Translations under genes and position numbers: made by a program
Notes under the pieces: model-generated
Told to the model about the DNA's origin: nothing
Databases searched by the model: none
What the model saw: the letters and a program-made list of their open reading frames with translations, nothing else
Shown here: positions 4,444 through 38,565 of the stretch, piece by piece
Layout: every line of letters begins with the position of its first letter
Numbering within the stretch: position 1 is the first letter of the stretch
Assembly: GCF_003570925.1 (NCBI RefSeq)
Contig: NZ_QXIS01000033.1
Coordinates: 90,612-154,611 of the forward strand
Direction: 5' to 3'
Source of the DNA: Candidatus Cryosericum terrychapinii
GTDB lineage: Bacteria > Caldisericota > Caldisericia > Cryosericales > Cryosericaceae
Length of the DNA stretch: 64,000 bases

Positions 4444-4689
4444 CTACCGCGGCAACCGGTACCGTATCGTCAGCGTGGCTCCATTCCCTTTCGGTGGCTC
4501 GGCGACGAGGATATCACCACTCTGCATGGCTTGTCTCATGACGCTGCAGCAGATCGGCATGCGATGATTTGGCCCCGGATATCCTCCTACCCTCCGGTGT
4601 AGGTCACCAGACGTCATGTCGACGTACCCACCTCGAGAAGAAGAAAAGATGCTGTAGAGCTCACTTCGAAAGTCGTCTGCATTTGGCAT
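4444..4689 (-). CDS. Conserved small protein (GDLHRRVGGYPG motif)
   Basis: An 81-residue protein starting MPNADDFRSELYSIFSSS, with the compact conserved stretch GDLHRRVGGYPGPNHRMPIC and a C-terminus PPKGNGATLTIRYRLPR. This arrangement is familiar from small hypothetical proteins found next to HNH or restriction-type genes; I can give no confirmed biochemical function. A GGGGGAG ribosome site lies just upstream of the ATG. The Cys-Cys pair and clustered His/Arg residues could bind metal or nucleic acid. The gene is in the accessory block and appears intact. Confidence 0.6.
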   Translation of the reverse strand: MPNADDFRSELYSIFSSSRGGYVDMTSGDLHRRVGGYPGPNHRMPICCSVMRQAMQSGDILVAEPPKGNGATLTIRYRLPR

Positions 4690-4958: not shown

Positions 4959-4986
4959 TTGACAGGTCAGTTGACTGTCCTATTCT
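4959..4986 (+). promoter_or_regulatory. Putative promoter of the small-gene operon
   Basis: TTGACA (4959-4964), 16-nt spacer, TATTCT (4981-4986). It would start transcription near 4993, giving a leader of about 280 nt before the first start codon. Confidence 0.5.
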
Positions 4987-5077
4987 GTAATTGTACGACG
5001 CGGTGATTTATTAAGGCTACTTGCATCCGCGGGTTCTACAAATGTGCTAAACGCCGGGACAGGAGTTGATGTTCTGA

Positions 5078-5103
5078 CCTTGCTTTGGCGCGCAAGGTTT
5101 TTT
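5078..5103 (+). terminator. Intrinsic terminator / attenuator in the leader
   Basis: Stem CCTTGC (5078-5083) / GCAAGG (5092-5097) with an 8-nt loop, followed immediately by six T (5098-5103). Because it sits between the putative promoter and the operon, it could act as a transcription attenuator, or simply end an upstream short RNA. Confidence 0.6.
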
Positions 5104-5112
5104 GCTTTTCCT

Positions 5113-5217
5113 GGACTGCACTGCAGTCCGGCGGCGATTTATGGCAACTTGCAGCCGCCTCACCAACCTGCTAAAAATGCCGTGGCTCCCTTGCCACGTC
5201 TTTGCGGCAGGGGAGCC
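5113..5217 (+). ncRNA. Candidate structured leader RNA (three perfect hairpins)
   Basis: Three hairpins follow one another: GGACTGC/GCAGTCC with a 3-nt loop (5113-5129), GGCGGC/GCCGCC with an 18-nt loop (5130-5159), and a 12-bp stem starting GGCTCCC and ending GGGAGCC (5184-5195 with 5206-5217, one G-T pair, 10-nt loop). The open frames through this stretch have no ribosome site. I do not recognise a known riboswitch class. Placement between a terminator and the operon start suggests a cis-regulatory RNA, or a small RNA gene. Confidence 0.5.
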
Positions 5218-5273
5218 GTTTTCGGTTCTCCTGGTGAGACTCGCTGCACCTGATGACACAAGGAGGCAGTGAC

Positions 5274-5330
5274 ATGCACCAAGAACCGAGATTCTCCGCG
5301 ACGTCCACGAACCAAGGTAGTGCGGCATGA
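5274..5330 (+). CDS. Short leader peptide, 18 codons
   Basis: ATG at 5274 is preceded by a strong AAGGAGG ribosome site and reads MHQEPRFSATSTNQGSAA before a TGA at 5328-5330 that overlaps the next ATG (5327). The good ribosome site belongs to this small frame and not to the downstream gene, so translation of the downstream protein probably depends on termination here (translational coupling). No recognisable sequence; it may simply deliver ribosomes to the next gene. Confidence 0.5.
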   Translation: MHQEPRFSATSTNQGSAA

Positions 5331-6064
5331 TCTCCCCGGACACGTCTGTCGTTCTGCCGGGACCATGGCCACATCCGCCGGTGTTCCCGTATCTGGTAAC
5401 AAGGCTTGTGGCAGCACTGTACCATGTGATGGTTCTGCCGACCATCGGCGAGGAAGCTCTGCTCGCCGTCGCTATCTCCCAAGCATTGGCCAACGAGCTG
5501 GATACCTGTCTCGTCCTGGGGCCTGACCGTTGTATCTACCTTACAAATGGTCAGTGCCGCCTTTCGAGCAGCATCCCCACCGACGGGATACTCATGACGG
5601 GAAGTCTCAAGCCTTCACGTCGCGTCAGTGCCTGGATGCCAACAGATGCAACGTATCCCGCACGGGTGGCCATCCTAGCCGAATCCATCAGCAGCCATCC
5701 CGTCTCAGGTGCCATCATGGGCGACCTCACGAAGGGTGGGAGGCAGGCAACTGCCGAGGACCTTACGAGACTCGGTGGTCTCGATGCAGGTGCTCCAGGG
5801 GTTCCAAACGGGCTGGTGCTGTGCCCAGTCTGTCACGAGTATCACGGTGAGTGTCTGGATCCCAGTCCGGTCTTCCAGGGACGCGAGATGACCGTGCACT
5901 GCCTCTGTGACAACGGGAACAGGTGTGCACGGTGTGGTGGTCGCCTGTCCGAGCGCAAGCTCAACGCCAACTACTACAAGCCGGCGGATGGCAACATCTG
6001 GCACGTACCCGGCTTCGCAGCTCTCGGTCACCAATGTGTCCCTGGGGACGCCATGGTGTCCTAA
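5327..6064 (+). CDS. Hypothetical protein with C-terminal cysteine-rich zinc-binding domain
   Basis: A 245-residue protein of unknown family. Residues 1-160 are mostly hydrophobic/helical without clear membrane segments. From about residue 170 the sequence carries a Cys/His cluster: C-P-V-C-H-E-Y-H-G-E-C, then H-C-L-C, C-A-R-C-G-G-R and a final H-Q-C, a spacing that suggests one or two structural zinc sites. Its start overlaps the stop of an 18-codon leader frame (ATGA). It heads a run of five small genes on the plus strand each with its own GGAGG-type ribosome site. I do not recognise a named function; a nucleic-acid-binding role is possible from the zinc ribbons. Confidence 0.6.
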   Translation: MISPDTSVVLPGPWPHPPVFPYLVTRLVAALYHVMVLPTIGEEALLAVAISQALANELDTCLVLGPDRCIYLTNGQCRLSSSIPTDGILMTGSLKPSRRVSAWMPTDATYPARVAILAESISSHPVSGAIMGDLTKGGRQATAEDLTRLGGLDAGAPGVPNGLVLCPVCHEYHGECLDPSPVFQGREMTVHCLCDNGNRCARCGGRLSERKLNANYYKPADGNIWHVPGFAALGHQCVPGDAMVS

Positions 6065-6178: not shown

Positions 6179-6376
6179 ATGAGAAGATGGATACTGGAGC
6201 GCATCCTATCGAACATGTACGACATTGAGGCCGTCATTGGCTACCGCCTTGCTCCGGATTGCCCCTACATCATCATTGCGACGTTTACCGATCGGAGAGA
6301 TGCGGACGTCTTCATGGCCGCCGCGGACAGAAGTATGGAGATCGGTACCTACACGCTTCTCAACATTGAGGACTAG
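6179..6376 (+). CDS. Small hypothetical protein
   Basis: A 65-residue protein MRRWILERILSNMYDIEAVI... with a single alpha/beta-like pattern (Y-I-I-I-A-T-F then D-R-R-D-A-D-V-F-M-A-A-A) similar in layout to small ferredoxin-like (ACT/RRM-like) folds, though I cannot assign a family. AAGGAGG lies 9 nt before the ATG. Second gene of the small-gene operon; the gap to the next gene is 9 nt. Confidence 0.55.
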   Translation: MRRWILERILSNMYDIEAVIGYRLAPDCPYIIIATFTDRRDADVFMAAADRSMEIGTYTLLNIED

Positions 6377-6385
6377 GAGGTCCCT

Positions 6386-6760
6386 ATGGATAGCAGCGCA
6401 AAACGTAACGCGGCTTCAGATGACCTGGGTGAGCTGTTCGAGCGGACGGTTGGCGACCCTGCCGAGATGGGGTTCATCAAGGCCATCGACCGGAAGTCGT
6501 TGACGTTCAACTATGCGGACGTCGTGACCGATGAACCCAGGGTGGCGAAGATCACCCCGGCCGACGTCATCGACTACTACTGGAACTACCGGGGGAGCCA
6601 TGGGTTCGAGGCCAGTGTCCGTTACCTCGGGTCCAAGATGCTCGGGGACTGGCGCCCCATCGATGAACTCGCGAGCATGTGTCTGGAATGGTTCAAGGTC
6701 TCCTGCCGGTCTGAAATGGAACACGCTGCAGCCAAGCACGGCATGACACTCATCTCCTAA
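6386..6760 (+). CDS. Hypothetical protein
   Basis: A 124-residue soluble acidic protein starting MDSSAKRNAASDDLGELFER; no recognisable domain. An AGGAGGT ribosome site is placed 6 nt before the ATG. Its C-terminal half carries several conserved-looking aromatic residues (DYYWNYRGSHGFEASVRYLG). Third gene of the operon, with 12 nt to the next start. Confidence 0.55.
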   Translation: MDSSAKRNAASDDLGELFERTVGDPAEMGFIKAIDRKSLTFNYADVVTDEPRVAKITPADVIDYYWNYRGSHGFEASVRYLGSKMLGDWRPIDELASMCLEWFKVSCRSEMEHAAAKHGMTLIS

Positions 6761-6772
6761 GGAGGCGGAATC

Positions 6773-7189
6773 ATGGGAGACCGTATCTCGATTCAATTCC
6801 AAACTGGCCAAGAGCGTAGCGTGACTTTGTTCTCACACTGGGGTGGGGAGACGATGCCCAGATACGTCCGTCAGTTCGATGCAGAAGTGCTCAAGAAGTG
6901 CAGGGGAGACAGCTATCCCCTGGACTGTATGGAACCGAACACCGTTATGGTTGCCTTCATTGCTTGGCTGTTTCGTGGCGCGGAGAACGACGAAGTCCCG
7001 ACTCATGGTTACTACCTCGGGAAGGATAGAAGCGACGGCGACAATAGCGACAACGGCAACTACGTCTATGCGTGCGTTCCGGACAAGGGCATCATAGCCA
7101 TAACGATCGAAACAGAAGACTGGGCCACGCATGTTTGGACCGCAGAAGATGCACCCGAAGCCATGGACACAAGAAGGGGGATCACATGA
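6773..7189 (+). CDS. Hypothetical protein with GDR...FSHWGG motif
   Basis: A 138-residue protein beginning MGDRISIQFQTGQERSVTLF, then SHWGGETMPRYVRQFDAEVL. The combination of an initial G-D-R, a strand pair and S-H-W-G-G is seen in hypothetical proteins of phages and plasmids; I know of no experimentally assigned function. An AAGGAGG ribosome site precedes the ATG. Its stop overlaps the next gene's start (ATGA at 7186-7189), so the two are translationally coupled. Support for a mobile-element origin of this operon. Confidence 0.6.
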   Translation: MGDRISIQFQTGQERSVTLFSHWGGETMPRYVRQFDAEVLKKCRGDSYPLDCMEPNTVMVAFIAWLFRGAENDEVPTHGYYLGKDRSDGDNSDNGNYVYACVPDKGIIAITIETEDWATHVWTAEDAPEAMDTRRGIT

Positions 7190-7563
7190 CTGAAGAAGGA
7201 AAGCTATACATCCCTATGAACAGCTCGGCTAAGCTGATGGTTGAAGGCGAGGAAGAGAGGATCGAGCATCAGAAACGCCTGGATCTCATCGAGCTCGAGA
7301 TCAACAAGATTCAGACTCTTCCCGCAGGGTACTGGCCTGACGAGTGGCGGAAGCATCTGGGCAGACTCTCGACCTGTGGTGCTGCGCTTCTCCACCTGAT
7401 GGTCGACGAGGAGCAAGCACACGCGTTCGACAAGCGTGCCTACGAGGCTGTCGATGCCATCGAGGAGGTATTCCGGGACATTGAGACAGCCACGTTCACG
7501 ATAACCAAGGCTCCCCCGGCGAAGGACGATGTGGCCGCCGAACGGCACAGGTTCTCGTCGTAG
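7186..7563 (+). CDS. Hypothetical helical protein
   Basis: A 125-residue protein starting MTEEGKLYIPMNSSAKLMVE, predominantly charged and helical (EEERIEHQKRLDLIELEINK), with a second helical segment around residues 75-100. The start at 7186 is chosen because AAGGGGG lies 5 nt upstream and the ATG overlaps the preceding stop. Last gene of the five-gene run. No domain recognised; coiled-coil character suggests oligomerisation or a protein partner. Confidence 0.55.
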   Translation: MTEEGKLYIPMNSSAKLMVEGEEERIEHQKRLDLIELEINKIQTLPAGYWPDEWRKHLGRLSTCGAALLHLMVDEEQAHAFDKRAYEAVDAIEEVFRDIETATFTITKAPPAKDDVAAERHRFSS

Positions 7564-7718: not shown

Positions 7719-8015
7719 CTAGAAGGAAGGATACATGGCATCCAGGATAACGAACAGGACTAACAGAGCTGTCGTCAGGAAGGCGAATAGCCAGAGGACG
7801 CGGTGCCGGCCCTTGCCGAGAAAAGCGCCGAGTGCCACCAGTCCGCTGCCGATTACAGGAAGAAGGAGCATGGCGAGTACGAGTACGCTGGTGACCCCAC
7901 CATATCGCCAGTTGTAGCCATGGAGGGCGTACCCGAAAAGCAAGACAGGCATGCTTGTCATCACGACAAGCCCCATGATGCTCAGGATACGTGACCACAA
8001 CATGCGCTTGTTCAT
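7719..8015 (-). CDS. Tandem-array membrane protein, unit 1 (C-terminally shortened)
   Basis: A 98-residue integral membrane protein beginning MNKRMLWSRILSIMGLVVMT, three hydrophobic helices, with the array signature GSGLVALGAFLGKGRHR at about residues 55-72. The start at 8015 has a GGAGG ribosome site inside the repeated start module. Compared with the other units it lacks the fourth helix and the tail Y-P-I-G-x-I-M-S-L-V-G-A plus E-S-F-R-R-P; the reading ends in AMYPSF where the others continue YPIG, so it is a truncated paralogue. It is the last gene of the array in transcription order. Confidence 0.7.
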   Translation of the reverse strand: MNKRMLWSRILSIMGLVVMTSMPVLLFGYALHGYNWRYGGVTSVLVLAMLLLPVIGSGLVALGAFLGKGRHRVLWLFAFLTTALLVLFVILDAMYPSF

Positions 8016-8050
8016 GGAACCGCCTCCTGGGAGAACTGTCACTCCCGCTC

Positions 8051-8503
8051 TTACGTTGCCTCGACGTTCTCCTTGGGGACAGGCGGTCTGCGGAACGACT
8101 CGACAATGACAAGCACAGCGCCTACAAGACTCATGATAAGACCGATGGGATATGTCAACGCGACAAATACCCACCATGGAGCGGCGTCAACATAGAAGTT
8201 GAGCGCAAGGAAAACGGTGGTCAGACCGCACACTGTCAGCCCAAGAGCCCCATACAGGAGTTTGCGGTGGTGGCTCTTGCCCAGAAGAGCCCCGAGTGCT
8301 GCCAACCCGCTGCCAGCAAGAATGGAGACATAAAAAATGATGGAAATGAGCGACTCCAAGAGTGACTGGTTCGGTGCCACCTCAACCGGTGGCAGCTTTC
8401 CGCCCCCCCACATCCCTAGGCCGACGAACGTGACAATGTCGATTGGCATCATGGCAAGCCCGATGACGCACAGGATACGTGACCACAACATGCGCTTGTT
8501 CAT
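8051..8503 (-). CDS. Tandem-array membrane protein, unit 2
   Basis: A 150-residue, four-helix membrane protein. It starts MNKRMLWSRILCVIGLAMMP, has GSGLAALGALLGKSHHRKLL in the middle and ends YPIGLIMSLVGAVLVIVESF followed by RRPPVPKENVEAT. The start context (ribosome site, ATG and first ~12 codons) is nearly identical in DNA to those of units 1 and 4, indicating recent duplication. The C-terminal polar tail is conserved between units and is predicted on the opposite end of the last helix. Function unknown; no catalytic motif. Confidence 0.75.
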   Translation of the reverse strand: MNKRMLWSRILCVIGLAMMPIDIVTFVGLGMWGGGKLPPVEVAPNQSLLESLISIIFYVSILAGSGLAALGALLGKSHHRKLLYGALGLTVCGLTTVFLALNFYVDAAPWWVFVALTYPIGLIMSLVGAVLVIVESFRRPPVPKENVEAT

Positions 8504-8539
8504 GGAACCACTTCCCAGGAGAAACGGTCGCTCCCACCC

Positions 8540-8956
8540 TTAGGTTGCATCGACGTTGTCTTTGGGGATGAGCGGTTTACGGAAGGACTCGACGAGAACC
8601 AGCCCAGCGCCCACAAGACTCATGATCGCACCGATGGGATATGCATACACGGCAACTCCCCACGATGCGGCAGCGGGAGCTTCAACATTGGCACCCACAA
8701 GGAACAGTGCAATTATGCCGCACAGTGTCAGCACAGAAGCACAGTACATGAATCTGCGGTAGCGGCTGTTGCCGAGGAAAGCGCCGAGGGCCACCAGTCC
8801 GCTTCCGAGTCCAGGAAGGAAGGAACCCGCGAGCAAGAGTGCGGTGGCAAACCAACCGGATACGCGGAACGTGAGATTGGCGAGTACAACCTCGATTGGT
8901 ATCATGGCGAGCTCGACGATGCAAAGGATACGTGACCACACCATGCGCTTGTTCAT
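8540..8956 (-). CDS. Tandem-array membrane protein, unit 3
   Basis: A 138-residue four-helix membrane protein starting MNKRMVWSRILCIVELAMIP, with GSGLVALGAFLGNSRYRRFM and the C-terminal YPIGAIMSLVGAGLVLVESF and RKPLIPKDNVDAT. The loop after helix 1 differs strongly from those of units 2 and 4 in length and sequence, while the helices around the GSGL motif and the tail are conserved: the divergence is concentrated in one extracytoplasmic or cytoplasmic loop. Ribosome site GGGAGGCAG precedes the ATG. Confidence 0.75.
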   Translation of the reverse strand: MNKRMVWSRILCIVELAMIPIEVVLANLTFRVSGWFATALLLAGSFLPGLGSGLVALGAFLGNSRYRRFMYCASVLTLCGIIALFLVGANVEAPAAASWGVAVYAYPIGAIMSLVGAGLVLVESFRKPLIPKDNVDAT

Positions 8957-8983
8957 GGAACTGCCTCCCGGGAGAGCCCTCTT

Positions 8984-9481
8984 CTAGGTTTCCCCGACAC
9001 TGTCTTTGGGGGTACGTGGTCTGCGGCAGGGCTCGACGATGACAACCAGAGCGCCCACAAGACTCATGATCCCACCGATGGGATATGCGTACGTGACAAA
9101 TGCCCACCGTGGGTTGGGCCCGTTGATTGACTCAGTCAATAGGCCGAGGTAGACGAAGAAGCCTACGATCAGACCGCATGCTGTCAGCACGAGAGCCGCA
9201 TAGAGCAACTTGCGGTAGCGGCTGTTGCCGAGAAAGGCGCCCAGTGCCACGAGCGCGCTTCCAGGAAGAGTGAGCCCGGTGAGCAACAGCCAACGAGGAG
9301 ATCTGGGGTCGAACACGCCAGTGAAGACGTCCATGGCAGTCCCGATTGCGAGCGCGCCGGGCAACAAATCATGATAGTATCCGGTGCTCAGGGTATCGAC
9401 GACGTACACGATAGCCCCGCCCGCCATCATGACAAACCCGACGACACACAGGATACGTGACCACAACATGCGCTTGTTCAT
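8984..9481 (-). CDS. Tandem-array membrane protein, unit 4
   Basis: A 165-residue four-helix membrane protein. The start at 9481 (MNKRMLWSRILCVVGFVMMA) is chosen because it matches the other units and has an AGGAGG site upstream; a longer frame adds 12 residues that overlap that ribosome site. Middle motif PGSALVALGAFLGNSRYRKL; tail YPIGGIMSLVGALVVIVEPC and RRPRTPKDSVGET. It has the longest loop of the single units, between helices 1 and 2. Confidence 0.75.
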   Translation of the reverse strand: MNKRMLWSRILCVVGFVMMAGGAIVYVVDTLSTGYYHDLLPGALAIGTAMDVFTGVFDPRSPRWLLLTGLTLPGSALVALGAFLGNSRYRKLLYAALVLTACGLIVGFFVYLGLLTESINGPNPRWAFVTYAYPIGGIMSLVGALVVIVEPCRRPRTPKDSVGET

Positions 9482-9517
9482 GGAACCACCTCCTGGTAGA
9501 AACGGTCGTTCCCGCAC

Positions 9518-10369
9518 CTATACTGTCCCGACACCATCCTGGGAGACAGGCGCTCTGCGGAAGGACTCGATGAGGACAAGCACAGCGCCCACACAACTCA
9601 TGATCAAACCGATGGGATATGTGAAGCAGAAGACTTCCCACCATGGAGCGGCCAGATAAGTGTACTTGTCCATGAGGACGAGCGTGGTGGTCAGACCGCA
9701 CGCGGTAAGCGCAAGAGCAACATACAGGAATCTGCGGTAGCGGCTCTTGACGAGATAGGCGCCGAGTGCGGCCAGTCCGCTTCCAGCAAGCATGATGGCG
9801 CCAATGAGAGCACAAGGAATCAGGTTCCACCCATCCTGCCGCCACACCTTCTGAAGCGGCAATAGAAGCCAACCGATCACATACGGGAATACGGGGTAGT
9901 CACTCTTGACGAGATAGGCGCCGAGTGCCATCATGGCAGGCCCGACGAAGGTCACCGTGCGTGACCACCATCTCCGCGTGTTCATCGGAACGTCCTCCGC
10001 ATAGAGGAACTCAAAGAGGACGAGCGCGGCACCGGCGAGACTCGCCCCCACGCCGATAGTCCAGACCAGATGCAAGGGACGCGCTGGAAACACAGGCTCG
10101 GCCGCAGAAATCTCTGGCCACCAAGAATACCTGTCCTCCAAGACCCAAAGCGCAATCCGCGCCGACAGCCCGATGGCTCCAACTCCAAGCGCACCGAGCA
10201 CGAGTGCTCGGTGCCGGGTCTTGCCGAGAAAGGCACTGAGTGCCACGAGTCCGATTCCAGACAACACGTACAGCACAGACAAGCCCTCTCCGGGCTCAAT
10301 GATACCTAGTAGAATCGCAACGATGCCGGGGAGCACCAGGATACGTGACCAGGATCTGCGCTCATTCAT
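9518..10369 (-). CDS. Tandem-array membrane protein, units 5+6 fused
   Basis: A 283-residue protein made of two array units in one frame. Unit 6 (residues 1-~128) starts MNERRSWSRILVLPGIVAIL and has SGIGLVALSAFLGKTRHRAL; unit 5 (from Met129) starts MNTRRWWSRTVTFVGPAMMA, has GSGLAALGAYLVKSRYRRFL and ends with the usual YPIGLIMSCVGAVLVLIESF tail. Just before Met129 the DNA reads GGAGGACGTTCCATG-like (GGAGG, 7 nt, ATG), the same spacing as the ribosome sites of the other units but now translated as part of the linker E-D-V-P. So the stop codon of unit 6 has been lost and the two genes merged; the internal start may still be used. About seven to eight membrane helices in total. Confidence 0.72.
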   Translation of the reverse strand: MNERRSWSRILVLPGIVAILLGIIEPGEGLSVLYVLSGIGLVALSAFLGKTRHRALVLGALGVGAIGLSARIALWVLEDRYSWWPEISAAEPVFPARPLHLVWTIGVGASLAGAALVLFEFLYAEDVPMNTRRWWSRTVTFVGPAMMALGAYLVKSDYPVFPYVIGWLLLPLQKVWRQDGWNLIPCALIGAIMLAGSGLAALGAYLVKSRYRRFLYVALALTACGLTTTLVLMDKYTYLAAPWWEVFCFTYPIGLIMSCVGAVLVLIESFRRAPVSQDGVGTV

Positions 10370-14902: not shown

Positions 14903-16447
14903 ATGAGTTCACAATCGACTGAATGGGCTTCCACAATGCATGCTAAAGAGACTGATAGCATACGATGCGCGATCTACACGCGGGTCAGTACTGCAGAACA
15001 GGCCAGCGACGGTGTGTCGTTGGAGATGCAGAGGAACCATGCGGAAGCGTTCGCTGTAGCCAAAGACTGGCCTGTATACCAGTGCTATGAAGACGCCGGC
15101 TGGTCCGGCGGCAAGATTGAGAGACCTGCGCTCAACCGAATGATGAAGGATGCCGAAGCGGGCAGATTCTCTGTCGTCCTCGTCTACAAGGTTGACAGGC
15201 TCTCAAGAGTAGTGCCTCACTTGTTCGCACTCTGTGACAGACTGGAGGCCCACAATGTGGGATTCGTCTCTGTCACACAACCCTTCGATACCACGACTGT
15301 AGCGGGGAAGATGATGTTTGGAATGCTGGCCGTTATCGCTGGATTTGAGCGGGGTCAGATCATCGAGCGAACGGTGGACGCTGAGGCGCGAATGAAGGAA
15401 CTGGGCACCTTGGTCTGCGGACCGGCTCCATTCGGCTTCAAGCACGAAGACAAGAAGCTACTGTATGACCCTGAGACTCTCCCGGTTGCGAAGGAGATCC
15501 TGCGCCGTTCGGGATCCGGTGAGCCTGAACGGAAGGTTGCACATAGCCTAGGGTTGACGCGCGACCAGGTACGCTCGGTGCTGCACAACTCACTGTTTGC
15601 CGGGAAGATTGCCTATGACAAGCGCGGCAAGAACGGTACGCGAGTTGGATACAACAAGTGGACCTACGTGGACTACGCTGGCATTGAACCGATTCTCGAA
15701 TTCGATGACTGGCTTCGTCTGCAGCAGGAACTTGCCCTTCGCTCTGATAGAAGTGAAGGGTCAACGCTGCCCCTCTTCGGTAGGATGATCTACTGCACGA
15801 AGTGCAAACATCTCCTGAGCGCTCACGGGAGCTCGAAGCGCAACAAGACCGAGTATGCGTGCCAGAGCGCTGGAAACGGGCAGAAGGCCTGTGGAGCTCA
15901 GTTGCTGGAACACAACCTACTTCCGGTGTTTGTCAGCAAGCTCAGCGAGGAGCTGTGCCACTTCGTGCCCAAGTTCGATGGTGCCGACCGGCTGGTCGAG
16001 ATCGATAGGAAGATCGCCAAGTACGACAGAGACATAACTCAGCTCGAGGGAAGACTTGCCATTCCAGAGGTTTCCGTTGAGAAGGTGAGGGAGCGCATTG
16101 CTGTGCTTAGGACGTTGAAGCATGAAGCACTGCAGGAACGGGCGGAAATCGGGAAGGAAAAGGCGCAGTTGGAAGAGGTGAAGAATGTGCTGGCGAATTT
16201 CGAGCCATTCTTTCTCAGCCTTGACCGTGCAAGCCAGCTGGAAGTGGTGCATCGATTTGCGAGACGCATCGATCTGGGAGTTACTAACATAGTTATCCAC
16301 TGGAGATTCTCGGAAAATGAGTGCAAGGTGCCTCGTCTGGAAGTCAGTCCCAGAGCGAGAAAAGCAGGTGTAAGGGGTCGAGTGGTGGAGATAGGGGGGC
16401 TCGAACCCCCGACCTCCTGCATGCCATGCAGGCGCTCTCCCAGCTGA
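14903..16447 (+). CDS. Large serine recombinase (integrase) of the element
   Basis: A 514-residue site-specific recombinase. The resolvase-type catalytic domain spans about 20-160: YTRVST with nucleophile Ser29, then D-R-L-S-R and the long helix after GKMMFGMLAVIAGFERGQI. A recombinase domain follows (about 185-290), then a zinc ribbon with CTKCKHLLSAHG and a second Cys pair (~295-335), and a coiled coil (~365-425), all as in large serine integrases. AAGGAGCG precedes the ATG. The last ~22 codons, from 16383 on, run through the tRNA-Ala gene on the opposite strand, so the C-terminus (VEIGGLEPPTSCMPC...) is encoded by the attachment site. It is the only recombinase seen and most likely drives integration at this tRNA. 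Confidence 0.92.
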   Translation: MSSQSTEWASTMHAKETDSIRCAIYTRVSTAEQASDGVSLEMQRNHAEAFAVAKDWPVYQCYEDAGWSGGKIERPALNRMMKDAEAGRFSVVLVYKVDRLSRVVPHLFALCDRLEAHNVGFVSVTQPFDTTTVAGKMMFGMLAVIAGFERGQIIERTVDAEARMKELGTLVCGPAPFGFKHEDKKLLYDPETLPVAKEILRRSGSGEPERKVAHSLGLTRDQVRSVLHNSLFAGKIAYDKRGKNGTRVGYNKWTYVDYAGIEPILEFDDWLRLQQELALRSDRSEGSTLPLFGRMIYCTKCKHLLSAHGSSKRNKTEYACQSAGNGQKACGAQLLEHNLLPVFVSKLSEELCHFVPKFDGADRLVEIDRKIAKYDRDITQLEGRLAIPEVSVEKVRERIAVLRTLKHEALQERAEIGKEKAQLEEVKNVLANFEPFFLSLDRASQLEVVHRFARRIDLGVTNIVIHWRFSENECKVPRLEVSPRARKAGVRGRVVEIGGLEPPTSCMPCRRSPS

Positions 16448-16458
16448 GCTATATCCCC
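16383..16458 (-). tRNA. tRNA-Ala (GGC), attachment site of the element
   Basis: Acceptor GGGGATA / TATCTCC (one G-T pair), D-arm AGCTCAGCTGGGAGAGC, anticodon stem-loop CCTGC-ATGGCAT-GCAGG giving anticodon GGC, and T-arm with GGTTCGA-type loop (GGGGGTTCGAGCCCCC). CCA is encoded. Its 3' end faces the accessory block and overlaps the recombinase gene's 3' end, the usual geometry of an integrated element. Confidence 0.95.
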
Positions 16459-37841: not shown

Positions 37842-38536
37842 GTGTTTTACGGTAGCTGCATCCAAATGAGCAATAAGGACAACCTCCTTCTGGTCTCACA
37901 GCCTCTCACATTCTGTGGTCTACAGCAGTAGCATCTTCTCTCACGCTGCAAATGCAAAGCGCGGGCGACTAGTCCAGTTGTTCTTCTTGGGCCAACACTG
38001 ACCACACGCTCGACCAAGCAGGCCAAACCAATAATACCGAGTATTGGTTCCAGGGATTTGGAGAGTAGGCGCCGAGGAGACATCCCCGCAACTATGAATG
38101 GCGGCGACTCGTACGTACTTCTTGTCGTGAGGGCTTTGTGGCGCGTCGGTTGTTGTCGTTGGTGCTTCGCTCTACTATTTGGCTGAGTCTCGACAATTCC
38201 GCGAGCAAGAGCTTCCATCTGGATTCGCCCAGGTGCACCAGACTTCCTTTTGAGGAAATGACTTCCTCCTTAAGCTGTAAACATGCGGGAAGAACGGTGG
38301 CTCCAAATCTTGAACCGTCAAAACTTCTTCCTCTGTGGGGGTCCGTGGCCTAGTTGTGCCAAGCCTGGACTTGCTCAGAGCCGGTCCCAGTTGGCCAAGG
38401 GGTGTCTGAAAGGCCATGTTCTAGCGAAGTCACCGTTCGAGGCGATGCGGTCGGCACCAACGATGACCTTGGTGATCCTCTGATGCGACAGCAAAAACCC
38501 CCAGAATCAATCAGAAGCGAAAATGGGGAAGAAACC
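37842..38536. other. Long intergenic stretch without a supported gene
   Basis: Nearly 700 bases between the VanW-like gene and the next promoter. Open frames on both strands have no ribosome site and no family resemblance. Together with the AT-rich gene and the tRNA this looks like an insertion-prone locus. Confidence 0.45.
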
Positions 38537-38565
38537 TTGACTTTTCCCAATAATTCTGCTAGAAT
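38537..38565 (+). promoter_or_regulatory. Promoter of the reductase/aconitase X operon
   Basis: TTGACT (38537-38542), 17-nt spacer, TAGAAT (38560-38565), giving a leader of ~80 nt that contains an AAAGGAGGAAG sequence well before the start codon. Confidence 0.6.

Follow-up and report, generated by a model that had tools for sequence, protein, structure and literature searches.

The window, that is, the whole stretch of 64,000 nucleotides of Candidatus Cryosericum terrychapinii that was analysed, contains an operon of five orphan genes (A-E) preceded by a long structured leader. The features of the leader, the operon and the right end of the surrounding island are as follows (window coordinates):

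4959-4986, plus strand: sigma-70-type promoter TTGACA-16-TATTCT, with a predicted RNA start at about 4993, a few bases 5' of aptamer 1
4999-5055, plus strand: predicted SAM-II aptamer, copy 1 (P1 4999-5003/5027-5031; L1 with GATTTA 5005-5010 and CTTGC 5020-5024; GCTAAA 5046-5051; P2 5015-5017/5053-5055)
5044-5091, plus strand: predicted antiterminator 1, in which GUGCUAAA (5044-5051, the 3' strand of aptamer 1) and the UUUGGCGC region (5084-5091) form a duplex
5077-5103, plus strand: predicted intrinsic terminator 1, ACCTTGC/GCAAGGT and T6 (stem 5077-5083/5092-5098, six T at 5098-5103)
5113-5129, plus strand: spacer hairpin GGACTGC/GCAGTCC separating the two riboswitches (arms 5113-5119/5123-5129)
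5130-5182, plus strand: predicted SAM-II aptamer, copy 2 (P1 5130-5135/5154-5159; GATTTA 5136-5141; CTTGCA 5148-5153; GCTAAA 5170-5175; P2 5142-5146/5178-5182)
5182-5222, plus strand: putative expression platform 2, with a strong stem 5184-5195/5206-5217 and a weak TTTT tail, overlapping an alternative hairpin 5182-5186/5193-5197
5260-5330, plus strand: Shine-Dalgarno (SD) sequence AAGGAGG (5260-5266) and an 18-codon frame from ATG 5274 to TGA 5328-5330; its overlap with gene A is ATGA
5327-6064, plus strand: gene A, 245 aa, with CxxC zinc-ribbon-like motifs and no family
6179-7563, plus strand: genes B (6179-6376), C (6386-6760), D (6773-7189) and E (ends at 7563), all orphan
14903-16447, plus strand: large serine recombinase overlapping tRNA-Ala 16383-16458, at the right end of the island

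The promoter, T6 terminator, stem-loops and 18-codon frame with its strong SD that an initial annotation of this DNA had placed ahead of an orphan operon are all present. The predicted fold of the 351-nt leader has an energy of -141.2 kcal/mol versus -118.0 +/- 6.0 in dinucleotide shuffles (z -3.85; none of 100 was as low), and the leader region includes four terminator-like sites versus 1.1 +/- 1.2 expected from shuffles. The three stem-loops distinguished originally are real as structures; the second of them, the stem 5130-5135/5154-5159, is P1 of aptamer 2 and not a plain hairpin, and the two-copy motif had been overlooked. The stems at 5182-5217 are nested.

The nearest named homologue of gene A belongs to Candidatus Cryosericum hinesii SMC3, a member of the same genus, where it follows the same tandem leader; the IMG/VR contig L077 has the complete arrangement once more, as its third occurrence. 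Both promoter hexamers and the 16-nt spacing are the same in the homologous leaders L007 and L077, while the spacer sequence differs. Terminator 1 is also conserved in both, and the spacer hairpin is retained in L077 via G-U and has one broken pair in L007. A divergent gene of 81 aa (4444-4689, minus strand) adjoins the promoter; it is present in all three elements with 87% of columns identical and is without a Pfam family.

The homologues of gene A in C. hinesii and L077 are 81-83% identical to it, and the changes by codon position (31/26/75) are dominated by third positions; judged by this pattern, gene A is under coding constraint. Genes A-E are common to the window and L077, and genes A-C to the window and C. 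hinesii. No match for A-E was found in Pfam, NCBIfam or PADLOC, and the sole PHROG match, for E, was marginal (E 0.089); across these four databases the operon products show no recognisable link to the metabolism of the methyl donor S-adenosylmethionine (SAM). The tblastn search with gene D gave no match in phages or plasmids. The PDB sequence search was empty for gene A and returned marginal, unconvincing lectin and fibronectin-type matches for gene D, and the AlphaFold model of gene A has a pLDDT of 34. Outside the genus, homologues of gene A were absent from 101 relatives, and the GTDB contigs gave none except that of C. hinesii. Homologues of A-E were found only in these elements.

Two predicted SAM-II aptamers in series

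The same motif occurs twice, at 4999-5055 and at 5130-5182; it consists of the P1 stem, a loop with GATTTA...CTTGCA and the 3' strand GCTAAA. The core GAUUUA/UUGC/GCUAAA is exact in both copies, and GCUAAA is invariant across 12 aptamers. The Rfam search of the window at the gathering threshold returned tRNAs only. A permissive search matched the SAM-II family RF00521 to copy 2 (5121-5195, 32.2 bits, E 1.6e-5) and to copy 1 (4990-5069, 16.2 bits, E 0.35). Both copies were missed by the default search because these scores lie below the RF00521 gathering score of 36 bits, which is a curators' cut-off and not a structural feature. Copy 2 is the sole strong SAM-II match in the window's own genome (whole-genome E 1.1e-5). 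Copy 1 was recovered with 48 bits (E 3.6e-9 genome-wide) by the covariance model R1, which was built from other aptamer copies with copy 1 held out. As for the SAM-V riboswitch (RF01826), Rfam gave no match in the leader at E values up to 5.

A covariance comparison with homologous leaders, whose failure to reveal covariation had been named beforehand as a refutation of a regulatory RNA, was carried out and revealed covariation in both P1 and P2. P1 is paired in 100% of cells over 12 distinct aptamers, with compensatory changes in three of the five pairs, and its covariation is 0.515 compared with at most 0.148 for slid controls. These values were computed on the covariance model alignment A6 and not on the MAFFT alignments, in which the P1 arm is misaligned. 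P2, which connects L1 with the sequence directly after GCUAAA, is re-paired in seven different ways across seven representatives, and only 2 of 5040 permutations of the P2 partners score as well. The pairs are GGC/GCC in copy 1, where the pseudoknot has only 3 bp, TGGCA/TGCCG in copy 2, CGGCC/GGCCG before metK2, TGCC/GGCA in the genome G040, and TTAC/GTAA, TCC/GGA and CAAC/GTTG in marine viral contigs. Conservation of terminator 1 and of the GCUAAA/P2 strand of copy 1 exceeds that of the genes.

Three genomes of the genus (G001, which is C. hinesii, G006 and G008) have a second metK gene (metK2) that follows an aptamer nearly identical to copy 1 and a terminator; the metK2 aptamers carry CAGTTA in L1. 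The presence of near-identical aptamers and terminators before a SAM synthesis gene in the same genus points to SAM as the ligand, and we infer SAM binding by the aptamers of the leader from their class membership and this association with metK2.

Taken together, the leader of operon A-E is very probably two SAM-II (SAM_alpha, RF00521) riboswitches in series on an integrative island, with a probability of about 0.88. The earlier view of the leader as a cis-regulatory RNA with an attenuator-like terminator is borne out, P1 and P2 being covariant. The statement that it matched no riboswitch class and might be a new cis-regulatory RNA does not hold, given the RF00521 matches and the result with the held-out model.

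Besides metK2, the pattern scan of the genus found four more sites before uncharacterised genes, each with promoter-like hexamers, a terminator-like stem and an SD as read by eye (G001:C27:34061-34124 and 38482-38544, G008:C48:9255-9317 and G005:C95:4221-4284; L190, L192-L194, L209-L211). The targets of these leaders are of two further kinds: one is a protein of about 300 aa resembling HTH proteins, the other a small protein with CxxC zinc-ribbon frames behind it. The G008 leader has AbiE-like genes in its vicinity. Gene A shows no similarity to the other riboswitch-led gene of C. hinesii. In G040, which represents another family of the class, an RF00521 copy exceeds the Rfam cut-off with 43.5 bits. 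This copy is part of an apparent SAM-II tandem before small sigma-factor-like genes (G040:C78, L019 15650-15960; the upstream copy was recognised by eye). The first copy there deviates strongly, and the terminator after it has seven T. The RF00521 matches in AT-rich genomes of the class (L012, L014-L018) are weak, below 25 bits.

Predicted switching and alternative readings

In the minimum-energy fold of platform 1, GUGCUAAA pairs with the downstream UUUGGCGC and the terminator is blocked; this was found in three of three tandem leaders. When GCUAAA was withheld in folding, the terminator was formed instead of the antiterminator, again in all three. Copy 1 is probably a transcriptional OFF switch: terminator 1 and the antiterminator appear mutually exclusive by sequence and folding, and we infer the OFF direction. 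Two metK2 leaders were folded as well, and no antiterminator evidently opposing the terminator was seen in them.

In the proposed mechanism, each aptamer would fold when SAM is abundant, forming the P1 stem and the P2 pseudoknot and holding the GCUAAA strand in the ligand pocket. In copy 1, GUGCUAAA would then be withdrawn from the antiterminator, allowing the ACCUUGC/GCAAGGU-U6 terminator to form and transcription to stop near 5,103. When SAM is low, antiterminator 1 would form and transcription would proceed to copy 2. Copy 2 would provide a second check, acting either through a terminator with a weak U tract or through control of the ribosome site, after which transcription would enter the operon. 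Translation would start at AAGGAGG and the ATG at 5274 and be handed to gene A via the ATGA overlap. A terminated RNA of about 110 nt is an expected by-product of such a switch, and the independent small RNA suggested by the initial annotation may be this product, a role in trans being only conjectural. A terminated RNA named RZ is likewise produced by the SAM-II riboswitch of Sinorhizobium meliloti metZ (PMC9373788).

The mode of action of copy 2 is uncertain, a second terminator and control of the ribosome-binding site (RBS) being weighted roughly equally. A tandem of two mechanisms, in which copy 1 terminates transcription and copy 2 buries or frees the SD at 5260-5266, competes with the double-terminator reading for copy 2 only and is given somewhat less than even odds. 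It is favoured by the weak U tract after the copy 2 stem (TTTT in the window, TCTT in C. hinesii), by the complementarity of CUCACCA in aptamer 2 (5159-5165) to UGGUGAG (5232-5238) 5' of the SD in all three leaders, and by the mixed terminator-then-RBS SAM-II tandems on record (PMC9481103). On the other hand, the 12-bp stem of platform 2 is very stable. In equilibrium folding this stem forms both with and without the aptamer, masking the aptamer leaves the accessibility of the SD unchanged, and the pairing probability of CUCACCA with UGGUGAG is at most 0.11. Sequestration of the SD by this pairing was rejected, as the two segments are complementary in all leaders, yet the pairing is unpopulated in equilibrium folds. 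The alternative hairpin at 5182-5197 shows one compensatory change in L077 (GUGGC/GCCAC to AUGGC/GCCAU), which supports a small competing hairpin, although such a hairpin would need to act kinetically.

The other alternatives concern the function or the class of the leader. It is quite improbable that the element captured metK riboswitches of its host and that the aptamers are decayed or functionless relics of them. Copy 1 does closely resemble the metK2 aptamer of the genus, and its P2 is short, but the promoter, the core and the terminators are conserved in three diverged elements, compensatory changes occur in P1 and P2, and the aptamer is kept before target genes of at least three kinds that are unrelated to each other. 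The scores under the Rfam gathering threshold and the deviating L1 of some copies in the genus (CAGTTA, CAATTTA) could be taken to indicate a class of riboswitch or cis-regulatory RNA that is new and has no relation to SAM-II. This is very improbable, since the core GATTTA, CTTGC and GCTAAA and the same P1/P2 topology are shared with covariation, the copy of the relative G040 passes the Rfam cut-off and the same aptamer is associated with metK2.

The 18-codon frame had been taken for a leader peptide. It is 18 or 19 codons long among the leaders, and no SD is evident for gene A itself. Because the frame lies 3' of both switches and their terminators and forms an in-frame fusion with gene A in L077, its most plausible role is ribosome entry for gene A by translational coupling and not attenuation. 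Attenuation mediated by ribosomes on the 18-codon frame has in its favour that a short frame with the best SD stands ahead of gene A, but it is scarcely credible in view of this position, the fusion and the lack of a codon-position signature in the frame (changes 7/7/4).

Known systems and the mobile island setting

The leader RNA is of a known kind, because tandem SAM-II riboswitches have already been published: a review of 2022 lists 44 examples, including two-terminator and terminator-plus-RBS forms (PMC9481103). Both the RNA class and the tandem arrangement are known, and the mechanism is not new. Like SAM-II riboswitches (RF00521; long-loop RF01726), the window copies comprise P1, an L1 with GAUUUA...CUUGCA, the GCUAAA strand, the P2 pseudoknot and a downstream terminator, and the class is found before a SAM synthesis gene, here metK2 of the same genus. 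They differ in scoring below the Rfam cut-off, in their host, a member of Caldisericia (Cryosericum) and not of Alphaproteobacteria, and in their targets, orphan genes on mobile islands. The published SAM-II tandems similarly have two aptamers per leader, the first with a terminator, and follow pseudo-cooperative or bi-mechanism logic, whereas the targets in the window are orphans on a mobile island. The SAM-II/SAM-V tandem of Candidatus Pelagibacter ubique (PMC9481103, PMC11508383) also senses SAM serially with a first copy terminating transcription; in the window, however, copy 2 matches SAM-II and is followed by a strong stem and not directly by the RBS. As in the S. meliloti metZ/RZ system, the window leader is predicted to release a short RNA by SAM-dependent termination, but the metZ system is a single copy with a metabolic target gene.

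The novelty is in the host lineage and the targets, i.e., orphan genes on serine-recombinase islands with type I restriction-modification (R-M) or BREX systems. A limited literature search found no account of SAM-II in Caldisericia, nor of its use there on mobile defence islands before uncharacterised genes. Within one genus, a second metK and at least three mutually unrelated sets of uncharacterised genes are preceded by SAM-II aptamers, and several of them are located within or next to serine-recombinase islands with R-M or BREX. Should the genes of the elements be SAM-responsive, this would offer a clue to why mobile defence islands read the methyl-donor level of the host, and would assign a regulator, and hence an inducing condition, to orphan genes.

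A type I R-M system belongs to the island of the window and lies upstream of the window itself, L077 carries PglZ and BrxL, and the island of C. hinesii has a type 4-like BREX with BrxP, PglZ and BrxL and, at its far end, one more SAM-II leader on the same strand. The G001:C27:34061 leader faces a BREX cluster that is type 4-like and lies on the same strand. The link between SAM sensing and the defence systems of the islands is suggestive only. It is improbable that Cryosericum islands whose defence depends on SAM or is linked to it (type I R-M, BREX) use SAM-II as a sensor of SAM collapse, with low SAM turning on A-E-like operons as a back-up defence or self-protection. Possible triggers would include an attack by phage SAM lyase or failing methylation of self DNA; phage SAM lyase also binds MetK (PMC11580459).

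Repeats of 15-67 nt of the tRNA-Ala 3' end and the recombinase end are present at 16382-16399 of the window and in G000:C27 near 27857, 46148, 53501, 54795, 59309, 67774, 70950 and 80129. The repeated copies of the tRNA end, several short ones of which are located upstream on the contig, suggest that several elements are stacked at one tRNA-Ala site. Downstream of the operon, the minus strand of the window (7719-10369) encodes a tandem series of four or five small membrane proteins that are paralogous and begin with MNKRM[LV]WSRIL, and no family was found for the one tested.

Single SAM-II aptamers were also observed in the marine viral contigs L096, L116, L127, L139 and others. Several of them are located directly 5' of an RBS and short phage genes, and that of L139 precedes an uncharacterised protein of 216 aa. 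The metK leader L029 (G015, family f2), from another family of the class, looks SAM-I-like by eye, so that a change of riboswitch class in the control of metK may have occurred within Caldisericia.
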